Source of the DNA: Bacteroidota bacterium | GTDB taxonomy: Bacteria; Bacteroidota; Bacteroidia; Bacteroidales; NBLH01 | DNA: 64,000 nt | Assembly: GCA_025361565.1 (NCBI GenBank) | Contig: JANYKN010000042.1 | Coordinates: 62,001 to 126,000, forward strand | Direction of reading: 5' to 3' | Shown: in pieces, positions 21,086-30,273 of the stretch | Layout: each line of letters starts with the position of its first letter | Position numbering within the stretch: position 1 is the stretch's first letter | Notes under the pieces: generated by a model | What the model saw: only the letters and a program-made list of their open reading frames with translations | Told to the model about the DNA's origin: nothing | Database searches by the model: none | Position numbers and translations under genes: made by a program

Positions 21086-23533
21086 ATGAATAAATTGAAA
21101 TTTATAAGCGTGGGTATTTTATTACTGTTTTTAGTAAGCAATGGCGTGTTTTCATATGCTAACCCAAAGATAGGATTGAAAAATCAGCCCTTTTTTCAAA
21201 TTTTTGATTTGAGTAAAAAGAACTACTTCGAACAAATTTTCACTAAAGATGAAAGAAAAGAATTAAAAAAAGCGGAAAAATATCTTGCTTCAGCTAATAA
21301 ATATATGAGCAATTATCAATCCGACCAAAAGGAAATTGAAAAATTATACACTATTGCCGAAGCAACAAGCAGTGCAAAAAGCAGGGAGAAATCCCTTAAA
21401 AAAGCAAGGAAACTTGAAGCTGGTGCATTAAAAGATGGATTCAGTGCATTGGACTATTTTAAAAAAGCAAATGACATCAAAATAAAAATTTATACCAATG
21501 CAATAAGTCGTATTAGGCTAAACGATGATTCAAAAAATGCAAAATCTGGCAGAGAATTGGAATTGCAGGCAAAAAGTCTTTTCGAGTCGGCAAAAAGTAA
21601 AGAGCGGACCGCTCCCCAGAATGATGATCAACTTAAATTCAATGCACTTAAGGATGCAAATGATCTTAATTTGAAAGCACTCGATTTGCAAGAAAAAGCA
21701 TTTGGACTTTACAAAAACGATCCAGCGGTTCAGGTTGCAGTTACAGAAGATAAAGTAATTGATAATATTAAACCGGATGACAAAAAGATAGTAAAAAAAG
21801 ATTCCGTTCTTTTTCCTGTATATGTTGAACAATATAATCCTTTAAAAGATGAAAATCTTTATCAGTCAAAAGCTAACATGATTTTACCGAGACTGAACCT
21901 CTCAAACGAAGAGATTAATTCTTTTTCTGAATCGAATAGGAAAAATCAAAATGCAAATGATTTGTTAAGACAGGTTGATGAAGCATACATTGTTGTTGAT
22001 TCATTAAATTATGTGGCTGACAGAACCGATGATGATCAGTTAAGGGATAAGATAAGAAATCAGGCAATTGAAAAAGAAAATACTGCTTTTTATAATTTAA
22101 CAACAGCTACCAATATTTATCTCGATGTAAACGATATAAGGTACAATATTTACAAAAGACATTTTCCAACAATTGAAGAAAAGAAACGTACTGCTGAAAC
22201 TGATAAAGCTAAGAGATATGAAACTGAATCAGTAGATTATTATTCAAAAGCAAAAAGTGAAATAGCTGCAGCAAATAAATTGATGTATAAGTCAGATCAA
22301 TATCTTAAACTGATGGGAGCGAATGATTTACTTTTGTATTCATTGCAGCTGCAAGAAAGTGCGTATGGTATTTATTTTAATATGCCGGGATTAATTTCAA
22401 CCGAAATTGATACGGCATTTGTTGAAGCAAATAAAATAACCAATGTTACAAAATCGACCAAAGAAGAAAATATCTCAAATAAATTAAGCTGGGATGTTTT
22501 GGCTACCTATATTTATTCCAGAGAAAAACCAAAACCTGTGACATATAGCAGAAAGAAAGGTGTAGTTTTTCTTGTTCAACTGGGTATTTATAAAGGATTA
22601 TTGGCACCTGAAAAATTTGGAAATATTCAACCAATTATTTTCGATAAATTTGTTAAAAATCCTTATCGAAGGTATATGGTTGGCGAATACAGATCATCTG
22701 ATGCAGCAGAACTTGCACTTTCAAAGGTTAAAGCTCTGGGCTATACCGATTCGTATATTATTTCTTTCATTGATGGTGAGCGTAAATCCTATTCTTTTGG
22801 AACAGCTAAAATAAATAATGATGATCACAATGCCTTTCTTAAAAGAATGGAAATTGCAAAAATAAATGGCGATACAATAATCAATAAAACTTCAAATGGA
22901 ACAAATGATGTTCCCAAAACTGGATATATATCTGAAAATAAGGTCCAGAATATCAGCGGTCTTGTTTATTTGGTACAGTTGGGTATGTATTTAAAACCGG
23001 TAACCTACAAAGAATTGGCAAATCTTAGCCCTGTTTTCACTGAAAAAATTCCAAATAAAGGAACAAGGTATATGATGGGAACTTATAATAGCATCGATCA
23101 AGCGCGTAAAGCAAGTCAGGACGCTACAAATAAAGGAATTAAAGATGCTTATGTGGTTGCATACAACAACGGGGAACATATCTCTCTCGAAAAAGCAATG
23201 AAACTCGAAAAACAGCAAAAAGGGAATATTGATGATAATCCTATAATTTTGTCGAGCAATATTTTATTTATGATTCAGGTTGGGGCATATCGCGAAACAC
23301 TTGATAACACTGAGGAAAATCAACTTAAAAAAACATTTTCTTCCGGTGAAATTGATAAACACGTTTATGAAGGGATGAACATTTATACAATTGGAAGTTT
23401 CAAAACTTATAAAGATGCTGATTTTTTAAAGAAAAAATTATTGGATGAGGGGCACAAAGATGTATTTGTTATAGCTTTTGATGGGACAAAAAAAATACCA
23501 ATTGGAGAGGCAATTAAAAAAATGAAGAATTAA
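21086..23533 (+). CDS. Secreted protein with three SPOR-like repeats
   Basis: The 815-residue product has a signal peptide (about 1-25). Residues 50-460 are Lys/Ala/Glu-rich helical segments resembling TPR or coiled-coil repeats. Three C-terminal SPOR-like modules sit at about 494-565, 626-695 and 726-800. Each opens with a V-Q-L/V-G-x-Y core (FLVQLGIYKG, YLVQLGMYLK, FMIQVGAYRE) and ends with a DxYI/VxxF strand. SPOR domains bind denuded peptidoglycan glycans at division sites, so a periplasmic, septum-linked role is likely. clpS begins 11 bases after the stop, suggesting co-transcription. Confidence 0.75.
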   Translation: MNKLKFISVGILLLFLVSNGVFSYANPKIGLKNQPFFQIFDLSKKNYFEQIFTKDERKELKKAEKYLASANKYMSNYQSDQKEIEKLYTIAEATSSAKSREKSLKKARKLEAGALKDGFSALDYFKKANDIKIKIYTNAISRIRLNDDSKNAKSGRELELQAKSLFESAKSKERTAPQNDDQLKFNALKDANDLNLKALDLQEKAFGLYKNDPAVQVAVTEDKVIDNIKPDDKKIVKKDSVLFPVYVEQYNPLKDENLYQSKANMILPRLNLSNEEINSFSESNRKNQNANDLLRQVDEAYIVVDSLNYVADRTDDDQLRDKIRNQAIEKENTAFYNLTTATNIYLDVNDIRYNIYKRHFPTIEEKKRTAETDKAKRYETESVDYYSKAKSEIAAANKLMYKSDQYLKLMGANDLLLYSLQLQESAYGIYFNMPGLISTEIDTAFVEANKITNVTKSTKEENISNKLSWDVLATYIYSREKPKPVTYSRKKGVVFLVQLGIYKGLLAPEKFGNIQPIIFDKFVKNPYRRYMVGEYRSSDAAELALSKVKALGYTDSYIISFIDGERKSYSFGTAKINNDDHNAFLKRMEIAKINGDTIINKTSNGTNDVPKTGYISENKVQNISGLVYLVQLGMYLKPVTYKELANLSPVFTEKIPNKGTRYMMGTYNSIDQARKASQDATNKGIKDAYVVAYNNGEHISLEKAMKLEKQQKGNIDDNPIILSSNILFMIQVGAYRETLDNTEENQLKKTFSSGEIDKHVYEGMNIYTIGSFKTYKDADFLKKKLLDEGHKDVFVIAFDGTKKIPIGEAIKKMKN

Positions 23534-23544
23534 TAGAATTAGAA

Positions 23545-23823
23545 ATGGGAAATAGCAAGGAAAAACAAAAAATTGATGATTTTTTTGAACTAAAAAAAAG
23601 TGATAAAAAAGCATTAATTCTTTATAATGATGATTATCATTATTTTGATTTTGTGATCAATGCCTTGGTTAAAGTTTGTGATCACACAGAAATTCAGGCA
23701 GAGCAATGTGCAACCATTGTTCATTATAAAGGAAAATGTGATGTAAAACAAGGCCAGTACAAACAATTAAAGCCAATGCACGAAGCTCTTATTGAACATG
23801 GATTAAATGCGGCTATTGAGTAG
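23545..23823 (+). CDS. clpS: ClpS-like adaptor for Clp protease
   Basis: The 92-residue protein fits ClpS. A flexible, charged N-terminal tail (1-20) leads into the core LILYNDDYHYFDFVINAL, with the substrate-pocket residues N28, D29 and D30, and H60 in TIVHYKGKC. ClpS hands N-degron substrates, those with an N-terminal Leu, Phe, Tyr or Trp, to ClpA/ClpC-ClpP. Clp subunits are not nearby. It is 11 bases downstream of the SPOR gene and upstream of the flotillin-like gene. Confidence 0.85.
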   Translation: MGNSKEKQKIDDFFELKKSDKKALILYNDDYHYFDFVINALVKVCDHTEIQAEQCATIVHYKGKCDVKQGQYKQLKPMHEALIEHGLNAAIE

Positions 23824-24012: not shown

Positions 24013-26379
24013 ATGTCTTTTACTTTAATAGTAGTTTTGCTTTTATTTGTGGTGTTGCCACTTATTTTGTTTGCCTACCTGATGAATATTTCAGGAGGTA
24101 CATGGCGATTGGTAAAAGCTGCTGAATTGAATATGTCCTTCGTGGGATTTATTTATCAATATGCAGAGATGTATGTCAGGAAAGTTCCTGCAGAACTTGT
24201 GTTTAAACTTCTAATAAGTGCTAAAAAAAGTGGTGCATTACTTTCATTAAGCTTGCTAAAAGATTTTTATAAATTAGTTGATCGCACTGTTGGTTTTATG
24301 ATTGGTGAGTTTAATAAAAATCTACTCGAAGGTGAATTGGAATTGAAAAGGATAGGAAGTTACTATTTGTTGAGTGGGAGTATAGACGATTTATTAGTGT
24401 TAATTAATGATTCGGTAAATGCTTTGGACGAACTTAAGGTTAAAGGAGTGATGAAAAAGGTTTCTGAAACACAGAAAAGAGAAACTGTAAACAAGCTCAT
24501 CAAATCATATAGTTTAAATCTTTCTAAATCACTTATAAAGCAGGTTGAAGTTAAAAAAGAGCCAGAAATAAAAAAGAAAGAAACTGAAATCAAAAAAGGC
24601 AAAGAGCATCCTCCTGTTCAGCCAAATATATTTAAAGATCCAGTTGTAAGATACTATGCAAACGAACTAAAAACCGCTTTTAAAGCAGAGCGTATTTATC
24701 TTTCCCATGGCGAAAATCTTAGTATTTTAAAGCGTCAGATTTTCGAAAATGCAGGTAACTCATTGATTAAAGCACAGCAATCGGGTTTAAGCATTTCTTT
24801 AAGTGAATTGGAGGATTATTTTGGAATGAACGGTGATATTGAAAATACTGTTGATTTATTATTGAAGGCCAGACATTTGGGTTTTGAAATTGGCCTGCAG
24901 GATCTTGGAAAGTTTATTGTTACAGGTGGCGACATTGAAAACACCCTTCTTAACTTGATTAATGCAAAAAGCGCCGGATTAAAAATAGAATTGGATGAGC
25001 TTGAAAAATACCATTTATTAGGCGGAAATATCGAAACTGTTGTAAAAGCATTGATACGGGCAGATCAGGATGGGTTAACTATTTCTATTGTTCAGCTCAG
25101 TGAATATTTGTCAAAAGGTGGTGATGTTGACGAAGTAGTCAATGCATTGATAAAGCTTCATCAGGAAAAAATTGACATTCCTTTGAGTCAGTTGAGTGAG
25201 TTTAAAGCATCGGGAGGTAACGTAAAACAAGTTGTGCTTAGTTTGATAAAGGCATACCAATCAGGGATTACCATTCCAATGTCAAAAGTGAAAGCATTTC
25301 AGGCGCAAGGTGGCGATGTTGATAAGTTGATTAATGTGATGATTCTTGCAGGAAGAGCAGAACTTGATATCAGTTTTGATGATTGTGAGAAACTTGCAAG
25401 GATTGGTGTAGATATTAATATTTTATTTGAGGCTTTGAAAATTCTAAAACGAGCAAAACTGCCTGTTGATAAGGAAAAACTTATGGATCTTCAAATAGCT
25501 GGAGGCAATATGCTTGCTTATGTTCAAACCCTTGAAATTTCAAAGCGCATAAATTTAACCATTAATCCAGATGAACTCGAAGCCGATTTAATTGAAGGCC
25601 GAAGGGTGATGGATGTAATTCTTGCAATAATACATGCTCGAAAAGAAGGTCTTGATTTGGATTATAATAAAGCTATAAGGCTAGATAGATCGGGACATGA
25701 TGTAGCCGAAGTAGTTAAATGGGCAGTAGATCCTCAGGTGATAAAAATAGAACCCATACCGATTATTACCAAAGATGCAATTGATATGAAATTATGTCTT
25801 AATGTAATGGTTCGAGGAAAAATTGGTCATTTCTTAAAAGGTTCCAGAGAAAAGGTTCTCACCGAAAGGGTTAACGATGCTGTAATAAAGGAAGTGGAGA
25901 GATTTGAATCTTATAAAGCGGTTCTTGAATCACTAAACGAAATATCCGACAGACTATTTAAAAGACTCACTTGTAAAATGATAAGTGTGGAGTTCCCAGA
26001 ACTTGAAGAATATGAAATTGAGCATAGCAATAAAAAAGAAGATAAATTAAATAATGGGAGTGCATTTGAAATTTTAGATATCAATATACCAAATATCGAA
26101 ATGGGTAAAGATGCATTGGCGGGCATCAGAATGGAAATGGCTGATTTGGATAAAATTCTTGCCAAAACTGAGTCTGAAAGGCGCAGATCTACAGCCTTTG
26201 CACTTGAGCACGAAGCCAAAGCCAAACTTATTGAAGCAGAAGCTGAGCTTCAACTAGGAATGGCTCATGCATTTAAAGAAGGATTAATGGATACTAAGGA
26301 ATACCACAAAAAGAAAATATTTGAGGACAACGAACTTTTGTCTTATGTCGAAAAACATGAGTCAGGTGAAGAGCATTAA
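24013..26379 (+). CDS. Flotillin-like (FloA/YqfA-related) protein with ten 32-residue repeats
   Basis: The 788-residue product has a membrane segment at 5-25. Residues 40-90 match the FloA N-terminal module (VGFIYQYAEMYVRKVP…). A long insertion (95-245) includes a Lys/Glu-rich linker at 180-200. Ten units of exactly 32 residues run from 261 to 580, each like IxLxxLExYxxxGGNIExVV. They end in the FloA-type EVVKWAVDPQVI. The rest (580-788) is the FloA PHB-like and coiled-coil end (AFEILDINIPNIEMGKD, ESERRRSTAFALEHEAKAK). FloA proteins are about 330 residues, carry about two such units and scaffold functional membrane microdomains. The expansion is far from typical. Confidence 0.85.
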   Translation: MSFTLIVVLLLFVVLPLILFAYLMNISGGTWRLVKAAELNMSFVGFIYQYAEMYVRKVPAELVFKLLISAKKSGALLSLSLLKDFYKLVDRTVGFMIGEFNKNLLEGELELKRIGSYYLLSGSIDDLLVLINDSVNALDELKVKGVMKKVSETQKRETVNKLIKSYSLNLSKSLIKQVEVKKEPEIKKKETEIKKGKEHPPVQPNIFKDPVVRYYANELKTAFKAERIYLSHGENLSILKRQIFENAGNSLIKAQQSGLSISLSELEDYFGMNGDIENTVDLLLKARHLGFEIGLQDLGKFIVTGGDIENTLLNLINAKSAGLKIELDELEKYHLLGGNIETVVKALIRADQDGLTISIVQLSEYLSKGGDVDEVVNALIKLHQEKIDIPLSQLSEFKASGGNVKQVVLSLIKAYQSGITIPMSKVKAFQAQGGDVDKLINVMILAGRAELDISFDDCEKLARIGVDINILFEALKILKRAKLPVDKEKLMDLQIAGGNMLAYVQTLEISKRINLTINPDELEADLIEGRRVMDVILAIIHARKEGLDLDYNKAIRLDRSGHDVAEVVKWAVDPQVIKIEPIPIITKDAIDMKLCLNVMVRGKIGHFLKGSREKVLTERVNDAVIKEVERFESYKAVLESLNEISDRLFKRLTCKMISVEFPELEEYEIEHSNKKEDKLNNGSAFEILDINIPNIEMGKDALAGIRMEMADLDKILAKTESERRRSTAFALEHEAKAKLIEAEAELQLGMAHAFKEGLMDTKEYHKKKIFEDNELLSYVEKHESGEEH
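24793..25752 (+). repeat. Coding repeat: ten 96-bp units in the flotillin-like gene
   Basis: Unit starts fall at residues 261, 293, 325, 357, 389, 421, 453, 485, 517 and 549, with no insertion or deletion between them. The DNA of the units has diverged, so this is an old protein repeat and not a fresh tandem duplication. A half unit (residues about 246-260) precedes the first. Confidence 0.85.
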
Positions 26380-26399: not shown

Positions 26400-26432
26400 A
26401 ACCTCAAAGTTTCATATAACTTTGAGGTTTTT
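26400..26432 (+). terminator. Rho-independent terminator of the flotillin-like gene
   Basis: The 12-bp stem AACCTCAAAGTT/AACTTTGAGGTT encloses the loop TCATAT and is followed by TTT, 20 bases past the stop codon. The rest of the gene-free stretch to 26771 is AT-rich. It holds only a weak -7-like TTACTTTG at 26735, upstream of the ABC genes. Confidence 0.85.
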
Positions 26433-26771: not shown

Positions 26772-28520
26772 ATGAACAAAAGAACACCAAAAGTAGTATC
26801 AGAAAAGCCCTCAAAAGCAAACATATTTAGTCTGCTTTCACCCTATCGCGGAATGATATCATTACTTGTTTTGTTTGCACTTTTGGGCAATGCAACCAAT
26901 CTGGTAATTCCTAAAATTATATCACATGGAATAGATTCCTATGGGTTAGGCAATTTTCAATATAAATTGTTGATAACTGAATTTTTAATTGCAACATTGG
27001 CAATTTTCATATTTACCTATATTCAGAGTATTTTTCAAACTGTTGCTTCAGAACGTGTTGCAAAAAGCCTTCGAAGTCAGGTCTCTGAGAAAATTTCCAA
27101 GCAAGGTTTTACATTTATTTTAAAGACTAATCCTTCAAAATTATTGACAAATCTTACTTCTGATATGGATTCAGTTAAGATGTTTGTTTCCATGGCAGTG
27201 GTAAATATTGTTTCGTCCATATTTATGATTTTTGCCATTTTTACATTACTTCTTATTCTTAACTGGGAGCTTGCTTTAACGGTAATCGCAATTGTGCCGA
27301 TAATCTTGGGTACTTTTTATATTGTTCTGCGCAAAGCAAAGGTTTTGTTTAAAAAAAGCCGTGAAGTAATTGACCGACTCAATAAAGTAATTAACGAAAG
27401 TATTTTAGGTTCTGCAATTATTCGTGTACTCAATTCACAGCAGCCCGAATACGATAAATTTATATCAGCCAATGTTGAAGCCCGTGATTTAGGACTTTCG
27501 ATACTGCGTTTATTTACTATTTTAATTCCTGTCATCATGTTTGTGGCCAACCTTGCCGTTGTTTCAATTTTGGCATTGGGTGGGCATTTTGTCGTTATTA
27601 GTAAAATGACTTTGGGAGATTTTGCTGCTTTTAACAGTTATCTTTCCATGCTAATATTTCCAATTCTCATGATTGGTTTCATGAGCAATATTATTGCCCA
27701 GGCAACTGCTTCATACAATAGGATTTATGATGTTCTTAAATCACCCGATTCTGTTGAGAAAGGTACATTAATCCAAAAACTGGAAGGGAAAATTGAACTA
27801 AAGAATGTTTCTTTATTATACGACAATAAACCGGTATTAAGGGATATTTCATTTACAATTGAAAAGAAAAGCCGTACAGCAATACTAGGACCAACGGCTG
27901 CCGGTAAAAGTCAGCTCTTAAATCTGTTAACCAATTTAATTAATACAAATACTGGAACTATTGAATTTGATGGAAATGCCATCAACGAATATGATAAAGA
28001 ATCTTTCCATAGTCAAATTGGATTGGTTTTTCAGGATAGCGTGATTTTTAATATGAGCCTGCGTGAGAATATTGCATTTAGCGATAAAGTTACGGACGAA
28101 TCGCTTAAAAAAGCAATAGAAACTGCTGAACTTGATGATTTTATAGAATCTTTACCGCAAAAACTGGATACAATTGTTTCTGAGCGTGGCACAAGTTTGT
28201 CTGGCGGCCAAAAACAACGTATTATGCTTGCCAGAGCACTGGCAACTAATCCACAAGTGCTTTTACTTGATGATTTTACAGCACGCGTTGATAGAAAAAC
28301 GGAGAAAAAAATCCTGGCCAATATCGAAAATAACTTTCCTGACTTAACACTTATCTCGGTTACCCAAAAGGTTTCGTCGGTTAAAGATTTTGATCTGATT
28401 ATTTTATTGATGGAAGGCGAAATGATAGCCAAAGGAAAACACAATGAGTTGATGGACGTGTGTCCTGAATACGTCCAGATTTATAATTCACAAAGAAGTA
28501 CACAGCACTATGAACTATAA
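26772..28520 (+). CDS. ABC exporter half-transporter, subunit with degenerate ATP site
   Basis: The product has 582 residues. The membrane domain with six helices spans about 25-310, and the ATPase domain about 335-575. Visible motifs are Walker A GPTAAGKS (373-380), Q-loop Q421 and an intact signature LSGGQ (476-480). Walker B VLLLDD has Asp501 where the catalytic Glu belongs, and the switch His is replaced by Gln532 (SVTQKVSS). This is the pattern of the non-catalytic half of heterodimeric exporters such as TM287/288. Its stop overlaps the partner's start by 11 bases, which indicates a coupled pair. The substrate (drug, lipid or peptide) is unknown. Confidence 0.9.
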   Translation: MNKRTPKVVSEKPSKANIFSLLSPYRGMISLLVLFALLGNATNLVIPKIISHGIDSYGLGNFQYKLLITEFLIATLAIFIFTYIQSIFQTVASERVAKSLRSQVSEKISKQGFTFILKTNPSKLLTNLTSDMDSVKMFVSMAVVNIVSSIFMIFAIFTLLLILNWELALTVIAIVPIILGTFYIVLRKAKVLFKKSREVIDRLNKVINESILGSAIIRVLNSQQPEYDKFISANVEARDLGLSILRLFTILIPVIMFVANLAVVSILALGGHFVVISKMTLGDFAAFNSYLSMLIFPILMIGFMSNIIAQATASYNRIYDVLKSPDSVEKGTLIQKLEGKIELKNVSLLYDNKPVLRDISFTIEKKSRTAILGPTAAGKSQLLNLLTNLINTNTGTIEFDGNAINEYDKESFHSQIGLVFQDSVIFNMSLRENIAFSDKVTDESLKKAIETAELDDFIESLPQKLDTIVSERGTSLSGGQKQRIMLARALATNPQVLLLDDFTARVDRKTEKKILANIENNFPDLTLISVTQKVSSVKDFDLIILLMEGEMIAKGKHNELMDVCPEYVQIYNSQRSTQHYEL

Positions 28521-30273
28521 TTTAAATCAGGCCAATGAGCAAGTACAGAAGAAGAAATCAACTTTTTCTGTGTTGATGAAATTATTTGCCTTCATTAGCG
28601 ATGAGCGCAAAAACCTTATACTTGCTTATGTTGCCATATTAATAAATGCAGGGCTAAGCTTGCTTGGGCCTTTTATGGTTGGATACACAATTGACCATTA
28701 TGTAAGCAATAAAGATTACCATGGAATCCTTTTGTTTTCTGGAATTCTTATTCTTTTATACATAACTGCCTTTTTTTCTAACCTTATTCAAATGAGGTTG
28801 ATGGGCAGTATTGGTCAACGAATGTTATACAGATTGCGTAATGCACTTTTTACTAAATTGCAGGATTTACCAGTCGATTTTTTCAATCAAAACAAAGCAG
28901 GCGATTTGATTTCGAGAATCAATAACGATACCGATAAGGTAAATCAGTTCTTTTCGCAGTCGTTAATGCAATTTCTTGGCAGTATTTTTACTATGTTTGG
29001 TTCAGCAATCTTCCTTTTAAGTATTGATCTTCCGCTCGGATCAGCAGCCTTGGTTCCTGCATTGCTGGTTTTAATATTTACACGGATTTTATCGCCCTGG
29101 ATAAAGCGTTTAAATACAGCCAATTTAAAAAGCACAGGTAGTCTTAGCTCCGAAATACAGGAAAGCCTTAATAATTTTAAAGTAATTATTGCTTTTAACA
29201 GACGTGATTATTTCCGTAAACGTTTCGAAGAAGTCAACAACGATAACTATAAAACAGCATTGAAAGCAGGAATTGCAAATAATATTTTTCAGGCAGTATA
29301 TGGTCTGGCAGCTAATGTTGCGCAGCTCATAGTTCTGGCACTTGGTATTTACCTAATTTCCATGGGTCATTTCAGCCTGGGATTGCTGATAAGTTTTATT
29401 GCTTATGTTACAAATTTTTACAATCCACTTAGGCAACTTGCTTCACTTTGGGCAAGTTTTCAGGTAGCTTTGGCCGCATGGGACAGGATATCCCAGATCT
29501 TAAATATGGAAAGCAACTTGTTGATTCAAAACGATGCGTATAAGGACATAACAGCGTCATTTGTTTCTCTGCGTGATGTTTCATTTACATATCCTAATGG
29601 TAAAGAGGTACTTTATGACGTAAATATTGAGCTTGAAAAAGGGAAAACTTATGCCTTTGTAGGACCAACAGGTGGCGGAAAAACAACAACAGCCTCACTT
29701 CTTGCCAGATTATATGATTCAACCAAAGGAAGCATTTTACTGGATGGCAAAGACATCCGTTCCTATTCCGCCGAAGAGCGTTCTCAAAAGATAGGATTTA
29801 TCCTGCAGGAACCTTTCCTTTTTACTGGAACAGTTCGTGACAATATTATTTATGGAAATACCGAATATAAAAAATTGAGCAATGGTCACCTGGATAATGC
29901 TATTCATGAATCAGGACTTGAAACTTTATTAGAAAGATTTGATCATGGTCTTGATACCAAATTACAAACCAGTAGCGATGAGATAAGCCTCGGACAGAAA
30001 CAACTTATCGCATTTATGAGGGCAGTACTCCGAAAACCTGAATTGTTGATACTTGATGAAGCTACAGCCAATATTGACACTGTAACGGAACACCTTCTTG
30101 ATAATATTCTTAAAAAACTTCCAACATCAACAACCCGCGTAATTATTGCACACAGGCTCAATACAATCGAAACTGCAGATGAGATTTTCTTTGTAAACTC
30201 AGGTCAGGTAACACCTGCAGGTTCGTTGGAGCACGCTGTAAATATGCTTTTGCATGGAAAAAGAGAAAGCTGA
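28510..30273 (+). CDS. ABC exporter half-transporter, catalytic subunit
   Basis: The 587-residue product has six membrane helices (about 30-320) and an ATPase domain. Walker A is GPTGGGKT (385-392), Walker B LLILDE has the catalytic Glu517, and the switch His548 sits in IIAHRLN. Its signature is ISLGQ (492-496), not LSGGQ. The weak signature pairs with the partner's degenerate Walker B, and the partner's intact LSGGQ completes this subunit's site. The pair therefore has exactly one competent ATP site. It starts inside the end of the upstream gene (ATG at 28510). Confidence 0.9.
   Translation: MNYNLNQANEQVQKKKSTFSVLMKLFAFISDERKNLILAYVAILINAGLSLLGPFMVGYTIDHYVSNKDYHGILLFSGILILLYITAFFSNLIQMRLMGSIGQRMLYRLRNALFTKLQDLPVDFFNQNKAGDLISRINNDTDKVNQFFSQSLMQFLGSIFTMFGSAIFLLSIDLPLGSAALVPALLVLIFTRILSPWIKRLNTANLKSTGSLSSEIQESLNNFKVIIAFNRRDYFRKRFEEVNNDNYKTALKAGIANNIFQAVYGLAANVAQLIVLALGIYLISMGHFSLGLLISFIAYVTNFYNPLRQLASLWASFQVALAAWDRISQILNMESNLLIQNDAYKDITASFVSLRDVSFTYPNGKEVLYDVNIELEKGKTYAFVGPTGGGKTTTASLLARLYDSTKGSILLDGKDIRSYSAEERSQKIGFILQEPFLFTGTVRDNIIYGNTEYKKLSNGHLDNAIHESGLETLLERFDHGLDTKLQTSSDEISLGQKQLIAFMRAVLRKPELLILDEATANIDTVTEHLLDNILKKLPTSTTRVIIAHRLNTIETADEIFFVNSGQVTPAGSLEHAVNMLLHGKRES

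Follow-up and report, generated by a model that had tools for sequence, protein, structure and literature searches.

Only part of what the helical half of FloA does has been described, namely lipid recognition in S. aureus, and to our knowledge no determinant of flotillin assembly size has been established. In the available text of PMC11222466, subdomain-1 of the PHB domain of S. aureus FloA is built of 'six parallel alpha-helices', subdomain helices 1 and 2 are needed for lipid recognition, the coiled coil is needed for higher oligomers, and NfeD stabilises the FloA oligomers. The same text describes PHB subdomain-1 as variable across the tree and reports no expansion of it. The available part of PMC2636767 places YqfA (SPFH5) in one operon with a ClpP-containing partner of the PH1511 type and describes duplication of SPFH genes in other subgroups. 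In flotillin, according to the available text of PMC11260169, an SPFH1 domain lies on the membrane.

The window considered here, a stretch of 64,000 nucleotides from a draft genome of the order Bacteroidales, encodes a 788-residue FloA-family protein with an expanded solenoid (24013–26379, forward strand), supported by the open reading frame, by PF12127 and by orthologues. This long form is called FloA-L (L, ten units), the ordinary form with three units S and the six-unit form FloA-M (M), the labels being assigned by best match to the L of the window, the M of its genome or the S of G001, together with place and length. All parts of FloA-L are given on the forward strand. The single N-terminal membrane segment of FloA has a putative counterpart in a predicted single helix (residues 3–36, 24019–24120), with which the hydrophobic sequence agrees. 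It is followed by a unit classed as 'a', membrane-proximal in ordinary FloA (residues 45–76, 24145–24240), by an insertion delimited on the structure model (residues 77–260, 24241–24792), and by ten contiguous 32-residue units, nine classed b and one c, that are predicted to form an alpha-solenoid (residues 261–580, 24793–25752). The SPFH (band 7) domain (residues 581–700, 25753–26112; the fold match covers 563–701) and a modelled coiled coil with an EA-rich stretch (residues 701–760, 26113–26292; helix 701–755, block pLDDT 55–71) complete the protein. A hairpin resembling an intrinsic terminator (26400–26429, forward strand; 12 pairs, then a T tail) lies 3' of the gene as a pattern match only, the window holding six such sites against a shuffled mean of 2.4. 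The promoter scan of the window gave 19 matches, fewer than the shuffled mean of 28.8, so that no promoter is claimed, and neither an Rfam family at gathering level nor a tRNA was found within the window. Two conserved neighbours precede the gene on the same strand, namely a ClpS adaptor gene (23545–23823; PF02617, 63 bits), which adjoins FloA genes in relatives, and a gene for an 815-residue SPOR-domain protein (21086–23533). The latter scored 31.6 bits against PF05036 as a whole protein (cut-off 21), with no single stretch above the cut-off alone, and is assigned also by the loci of relatives, whose FloA clusters hold orthologues of about 690–880 residues. Two neighbouring ABC exporter half-transporter genes (26772–30273) were observed after the terminator-like hairpin.

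The family identity of FloA-L is well supported, and the membership proposed in the initial annotation was borne out. The protein scored 225.7 bits against PF12127 (FloA; cut-off 34), and its modelled SPFH (PHB) domain was superimposed on that of stomatin (4fvj_B) with a VIA-align Z of 12.5 and an rmsd of 2.2 across 111 residues. Against the FloA equivalog NCBIfam NF010186 it scored 228.4 bits, below the cut-off of 393, compared with 515.6 bits for the ordinary FloA of G001. The Pfam search returned four rows, FloA and three below their own cut-offs. As judged by these profiles, FloA-L is inside the FloA family and outside FloA as narrowly defined. In place of the three-unit (six-helix) subdomain of FloA it has ten contiguous units and one separate unit.

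The initial annotation had described ten exact repeats at residues 261–580, with starts 32 apart and no indels. The ten units and their spacing were recovered by a unit profile and by autocorrelation; the exactness did not extend to the sequence. Unit starts were placed at residues 261, 293, 325, 357, 389, 421, 453, 485, 517 and 549, a constant step of 32, with scores of 25–45 bits for the array and 17 bits for the additional unit at residue 45, against a 99% level of −1.6 bits and a maximum of 3.7 bits in shuffled proteins. The profile was seeded from the ten units of FloA-L itself and refined on relatives, so its FloA-L scores are not independent, and independent views of the array come from the autocorrelation and the structure model. 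Over residues 230–600 and offsets of 10–79, the mean BLOSUM62 score peaked at +0.84 for offset 32 and +0.79 for offset 64, with −0.52 as the next best value; the highest value that 500 shuffles yielded at any offset was −0.33. The 32-residue periodicity is far outside chance. Among the 83 open reading frames of at least 80 residues in the window, only FloA-L held any unit above 4 bits. The units are 24% identical on average (range 6–47%), and their DNA 43%; such low values argue for an old array rather than a recent tandem duplication, in which the spacing was kept and the sequence was not.

Canonical FloA, credited in the initial annotation with about two units, turned out to have three in 15 of the 16 ordinary rows, the Opitutaceae row showing two. 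A classifier trained on the unit positions a, b and c of 15 ordinary FloA proteins assigned 45 of 45 units correctly in leave-one-out. Applied to the FloA-L of the window, it read one a, a gap of 184 residues, nine b and one c, the calls for array units 1, 2, 7 and 8 resting on negative scores and being only relative. The array was read as nine b and then c in all four full-length close long forms (window, G001, G002 and G022), the long form of G004, which ends at a contig edge, being left out of unit classing. Unit a ahead of the insert was called in the window protein and in G022 and was absent from the calls in G001 and G002. FloA-M was read as a, four b and c in 20 of 23 proteins. The pattern points to end units a and c that are fixed and a middle unit b that is multiplied, and on this classing FloA-L is judged to be a FloA paralogue of expanded form in which unit b has been multiplied between fixed end units.

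An AlphaFold2 model of FloA-L from a 12-row alignment had a mean pLDDT of 77.2 and a pTM of 0.45; at this pTM the relative placement of domains is unsure and is not to be taken from the model. A predicted membrane helix at residues 3–36 and two helices at 43–72 are followed by the insert, with a disordered stretch at 176–207 (pLDDT <50), and then by helices over residues 263–572 that recur regularly, some eight or nine residues long and the others mostly thirteen. The SPFH sheet-and-helix domain and the long helix at 701–755 come after the solenoid. Block pLDDT was 80–92 for residues 311–690 and 64–75 for residues 261–310, which correspond to the first unit and half of the second. The solenoid suggested in the initial annotation, for which it had called for a prediction of the full protein, agrees with this model, where the ten units are predicted to form a single continuous solenoid with two helices per unit, weaker in pLDDT at 261–310. 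That it is a rigid arm on a membrane-microdomain scaffold, as the annotation suggested, is plausible. The proposed FloA-type flanking modules likewise reappear, as a predicted membrane segment, the SPFH domain and the coiled coil; the additional insertion exists, its extent being about residues 77–260 rather than 95–245.

The best Foldseek match of FloA-L was HflK/C (E 3.5e-4). Compared with the flotillin and HflK/C structures 9bq2 and 7vhq, the model gave Z values of 9.2 and 11.7, respectively; the overall rmsd values of 11.9 and 17.5 reflect a different placement of the coiled coil. In the full-protein fold search the array part gave only weak matches, with Z up to 9.1 at an rmsd of 29, values that common helical arrangements also reach. 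A likeness of the array to DNA-binding repeat proteins and to a designed cage protein was set aside, its values (Z 8.6–9.1, rmsd 13–29) being common for helical repeats. Sequence searches of the PDB with the long form, the ordinary form and the M profile gave no match at E up to 1. Against viral structures, Foldseek placed SPFH proteins at the top, followed mostly by tail or tape-measure proteins and other weak rows.

The initial annotation knew of no description of such a form. None of a FloA with extra units, of a FloA trio or of a lipoprotein-like FloA was found among the open-access matches listed, most subscription papers being outside the scope of the search. FloA-L is also no lone oddity, the order containing orthologues with ten units as well as further relatives of expanded form. 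Orthologues in G001, G002 and G022 are 58, 49 and 43% identical to it, respectively, and ten contiguous units are present in all five close long forms (window, G001, G002, G004 and G022; 42–60% identity to the window protein), with one additional residue between two units in G002 and G004. The four genomes other than that of the window are Bacteroidales metagenome assemblies. Beyond this close group, 12 L rows show 2–10 detectable units, mostly with gaps, and 2–7 in nine of them.

In relatives as many as three FloA genes follow one another. Complete clusters in the order SPOR-ClpS-NfeD-FloA(3)-FloA(10)-FloA(6) were found in G001 and G002, and likewise, split over two contigs, in G004, the long gene of all three lying within NfeD-containing clusters. 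Of the 25 loci with an ordinary FloA that were examined, 19 have NfeD as a neighbour. The L gene adjoins M in 14 of 17 genomes that have it, a tally in which G004, with its cluster on two contigs, and G133, where the contig ends within M, are included; L and M are not adjacent in the window genome, G005 and G042. A SPOR gene stands directly ahead of M, with no L beside M, in G071, G160 and G253. ClpS, mostly behind the SPOR protein of about 690–880 residues, precedes FloA genes in many genomes (window 23545–23823; loci L039, L040, L041, L045, L049, L116–L118, L122 and L125), and among the same 25 ordinary loci, the flanks of which are short, it adjoins FloA in 10; a link between a FloA scaffold and proteolysis is possible from this neighbourhood. 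Two overlapping FloA-like frames lie upstream of the long and six-unit genes in G353 (L116:2641–4711) and represent either two genes or an additional FloA that a frameshift has divided. The position expected for the long FloA is occupied in G178 by a frame of 560 residues (L124:2939–4621) with no Pfam match, which may be a long form that has decayed or diverged strongly.

The six-unit FloA-M displayed six units in 21 of 23 proteins, one of the others having three and one seven. A cysteine at residue 19–27 behind a hydrophobic stretch was present in 20 of the 23 (absent in G109, G291 and G260). A loose lipobox pattern was matched by 15 of 23 and, by chance, also by the ordinary FloA row L018 and by the L rows of G291 and of G001, in the latter at residue 4 counted from an upstream start. 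In the FloA-M model (mean pLDDT 75.8) the signal-like start forms a helix that a disordered linker separates from another long helix; six units of two helices each come next, ahead of the SPFH domain and the coiled coil. A fold search with this model returned SPFH-fold matches. The lipoprotein-like start together with this model suggests a putative lipid anchor in the periplasm and a FloA body in the cytoplasm. Within the genus, M proteins are 62–78% identical, compared with 43–58% for L.

For the distribution, genomes were sampled at the level of the order, class and phylum of the window genome. The array region matched 23 of the 393 genomes sampled in the order (E 1e-12), a count that includes the window genome and M forms; expanded FloA forms are uncommon in the order. 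In the class sample FloA was found in 63 of 149 genomes, and only the window genome and G787, with a frame length of 824, showed clearly expanded forms. The FloA of G787 (L133:708–3107), from another order of the class, has seven units at an exact spacing of 32, of which units 3–6 are 50–59% alike, and a large coiled-coil-like insertion within the SPFH region; it is probably an independent expansion. In the same sample G465 gave an ordinary-scoring FloA match inside a 433-residue open frame. Five of the 296 genomes of the phylum sample, the window genome included, matched the array at E 1e-9, and the frames of the other four have ordinary lengths (334–355), as does the one match seen outside the phylum, in an Opitutaceae assembly (333). 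For the C-terminal part that all forms share, a tree was built by a quick method from 55 rows, with the G260 L row cut at a fixed length because of a poor unit call. A single branch set M apart (support 95) and another did so for S (support 98); for L the corresponding support was only 81, and several L rows have very long branches. A single origin of L is not claimed.

The window genome itself is a 199-contig draft, about 98% complete, with two FloA genes, the long one described here and a FloA-M with six units behind a lipoprotein-like signal on contig C145 (L050:8245–9639, reverse strand). The initial annotation had asked whether a standard FloA also exists in this genome, and none was found in a genome-wide search. 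The NfeD partner of the FloA operon gave no PF01957 match in the window genome at E 0.001, the control being positive in 11 of 14 known genomes, and with the NfeD of a relative as query a weak partial match appeared (E 0.0034). Ordinary FloA and NfeD were both found by the same searches in five of seven relatives; in G003 and G006 (82% and 90% complete) neither was found and no long form was matched. At about 98% completeness the absence of both genes is likely, and since the SPOR and ClpS genes still stand ahead of the long gene, NfeD and ordinary FloA have probably been lost from between ClpS and L. Eleven further band-7 matches were found elsewhere in the genome, and one band-7 protein (C186:80420–80935) has a stop codon inside the match.

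As to what the expanded array does, we infer the function of the arm and tentatively favour, with a confidence somewhat short of even, a membrane-anchored SPFH oligomer in which the solenoid is a partner-docking arm and which works with FloA-M. The N-terminal helix would anchor FloA-L in the membrane, the SPFH domain and the EA-rich coiled coil would build the oligomer, and the ten-unit solenoid between them would serve to hold a protein partner, with units 1–4 as the most likely site, while the six-unit and probably lipid-anchored FloA-M, its usual neighbour, would act together with it. A docking arm is favoured because, among the five close L orthologues, the coiled coil has the highest pairwise identity of the segments compared (0.66), units 1–4 and 10 (0.59–0.64) exceed units 5–9 (0.40–0.53), and ten units are kept in all five; the frequent adjacency of L and M (14 of 17) is counted on the same side, as are the family and fold matches and the roles described for the first two helices and the coiled coil in S. 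aureus FloA. The insert (residues 77–230) has a pairwise identity of 0.33. Against a docking arm stand the low pTM (0.45) and the block pLDDT of 64–75 over the first one and a half units, the missed equivalog cut-off, unit a going uncalled in G001 and G002, and, in the window genome, an L that is not beside M and a close NfeD homologue that was not found. The fast evolution of L and the varied unit number of distant L rows count against it as well, fitting weak constraint as well as they fit adaptation.

The kept unit numbers (three in 15 of 16 ordinary forms, six in 21 of 23 M and ten in all five close L), and a spacing of 32 residues that is held while the sequence drifts, would also be expected if the solenoid bound nothing specific and only set the distance of the SPFH ring from the membrane or its width, so that three, six or ten units gave different corral sizes. 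This is unlikely, though it deserves serious attention: a plain spacer would not need units 1–4 to be more conserved than units 5–9, an insert that is partly disordered ahead of the array would make a poor ruler, and distant L rows differ in unit number. These same distant rows, with the long L branches and the several genomes with no L beside M (G071, G160 and G253), could be read as signs of a duplicate drifting under weak constraint, with a unit number that has no function. That reading appears improbable in view of the open frame and ten units kept in five of five close forms at 42–60% identity, of the coiled coil at 0.66, and of the retention of L in the window genome even though ordinary FloA was not found there.

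It is slightly more improbable that the extra units enlarge a lipid-binding surface on the membrane, which would extend the lipid recognition by the first helices of S. aureus FloA. Subdomain-1 helices 1 and 2 are needed there for staphyloxanthin binding (available text of PMC11222466), but by our own equation they would correspond to the first unit, which in L stands apart at residues 45–76 before the insert, and simple charge counts show no basic surface, five array units having an acidic excess, two a basic excess and three being even. An assembly or gene-model artefact, which the 199-contig draft and the metagenome assemblies of the named relatives might suggest, is hardly credible, as several genomes in differently named assemblies share the architecture, there is no internal stop, and array DNA copies only 43% alike fit neither collapse nor stutter.

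The docking arm remains the preferred reading of FloA-L, and the wider interest of the locus lies in the series to which it belongs, in which adjacent genes of a single genome (G001 and G002) encode one scaffold at lengths of three, six and ten helical units. Arm length, which seems to be a variable part of the FloA design, becomes by this unit-count series a testable variable for ring size, membrane distance or partner choice. The window genome adds a flotillin pair, L and M, retained in a genome from which searches recovered no ordinary FloA and no close NfeD. More speculatively, and with considerable doubt, the Bacteroidales might possess a graded flotillin set, comprising three co-inherited FloA paralogues of the form a-b(n)-c with n = 1, 4 and 9, one of them lipid-tethered to the periplasmic leaflet, which would co-assemble into a stepped or nested scaffold with a geometry set by the number of middle units.

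Compared with the known systems, FloA-L shares with FloA/YqfA (PF12127; SPFH5 in the available text of PMC2636767) the order of membrane helix (in FloA-L a predicted one), units a, b and c, SPFH domain and EA-rich coiled coil, whereas it has nine b units instead of one, an insert of 184 residues after a, a length of 788 instead of about 330 residues and a score below the NCBI equivalog cut-off. The subdomain-1 of S. aureus FloA, taken from the available text of PMC11222466 as two helices in each of three units, would fit the a-b-c core by position; in the contiguous array of FloA-L there would be twenty helices. The mammalian flotillin and HflK/C complexes (9bq2 and 7vhq) share the SPFH fold with FloA-L as modelled, but the SPFH1 domain of flotillin occupies the place of the helical units of FloA. 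FloA-M of the same genomes, with a, four b and c, then SPFH and coiled coil, follows the plan of FloA-L, from which it differs in its lipoprotein-like start, a coiled coil that is shorter in the alignment and its place on a separate side of the tree.
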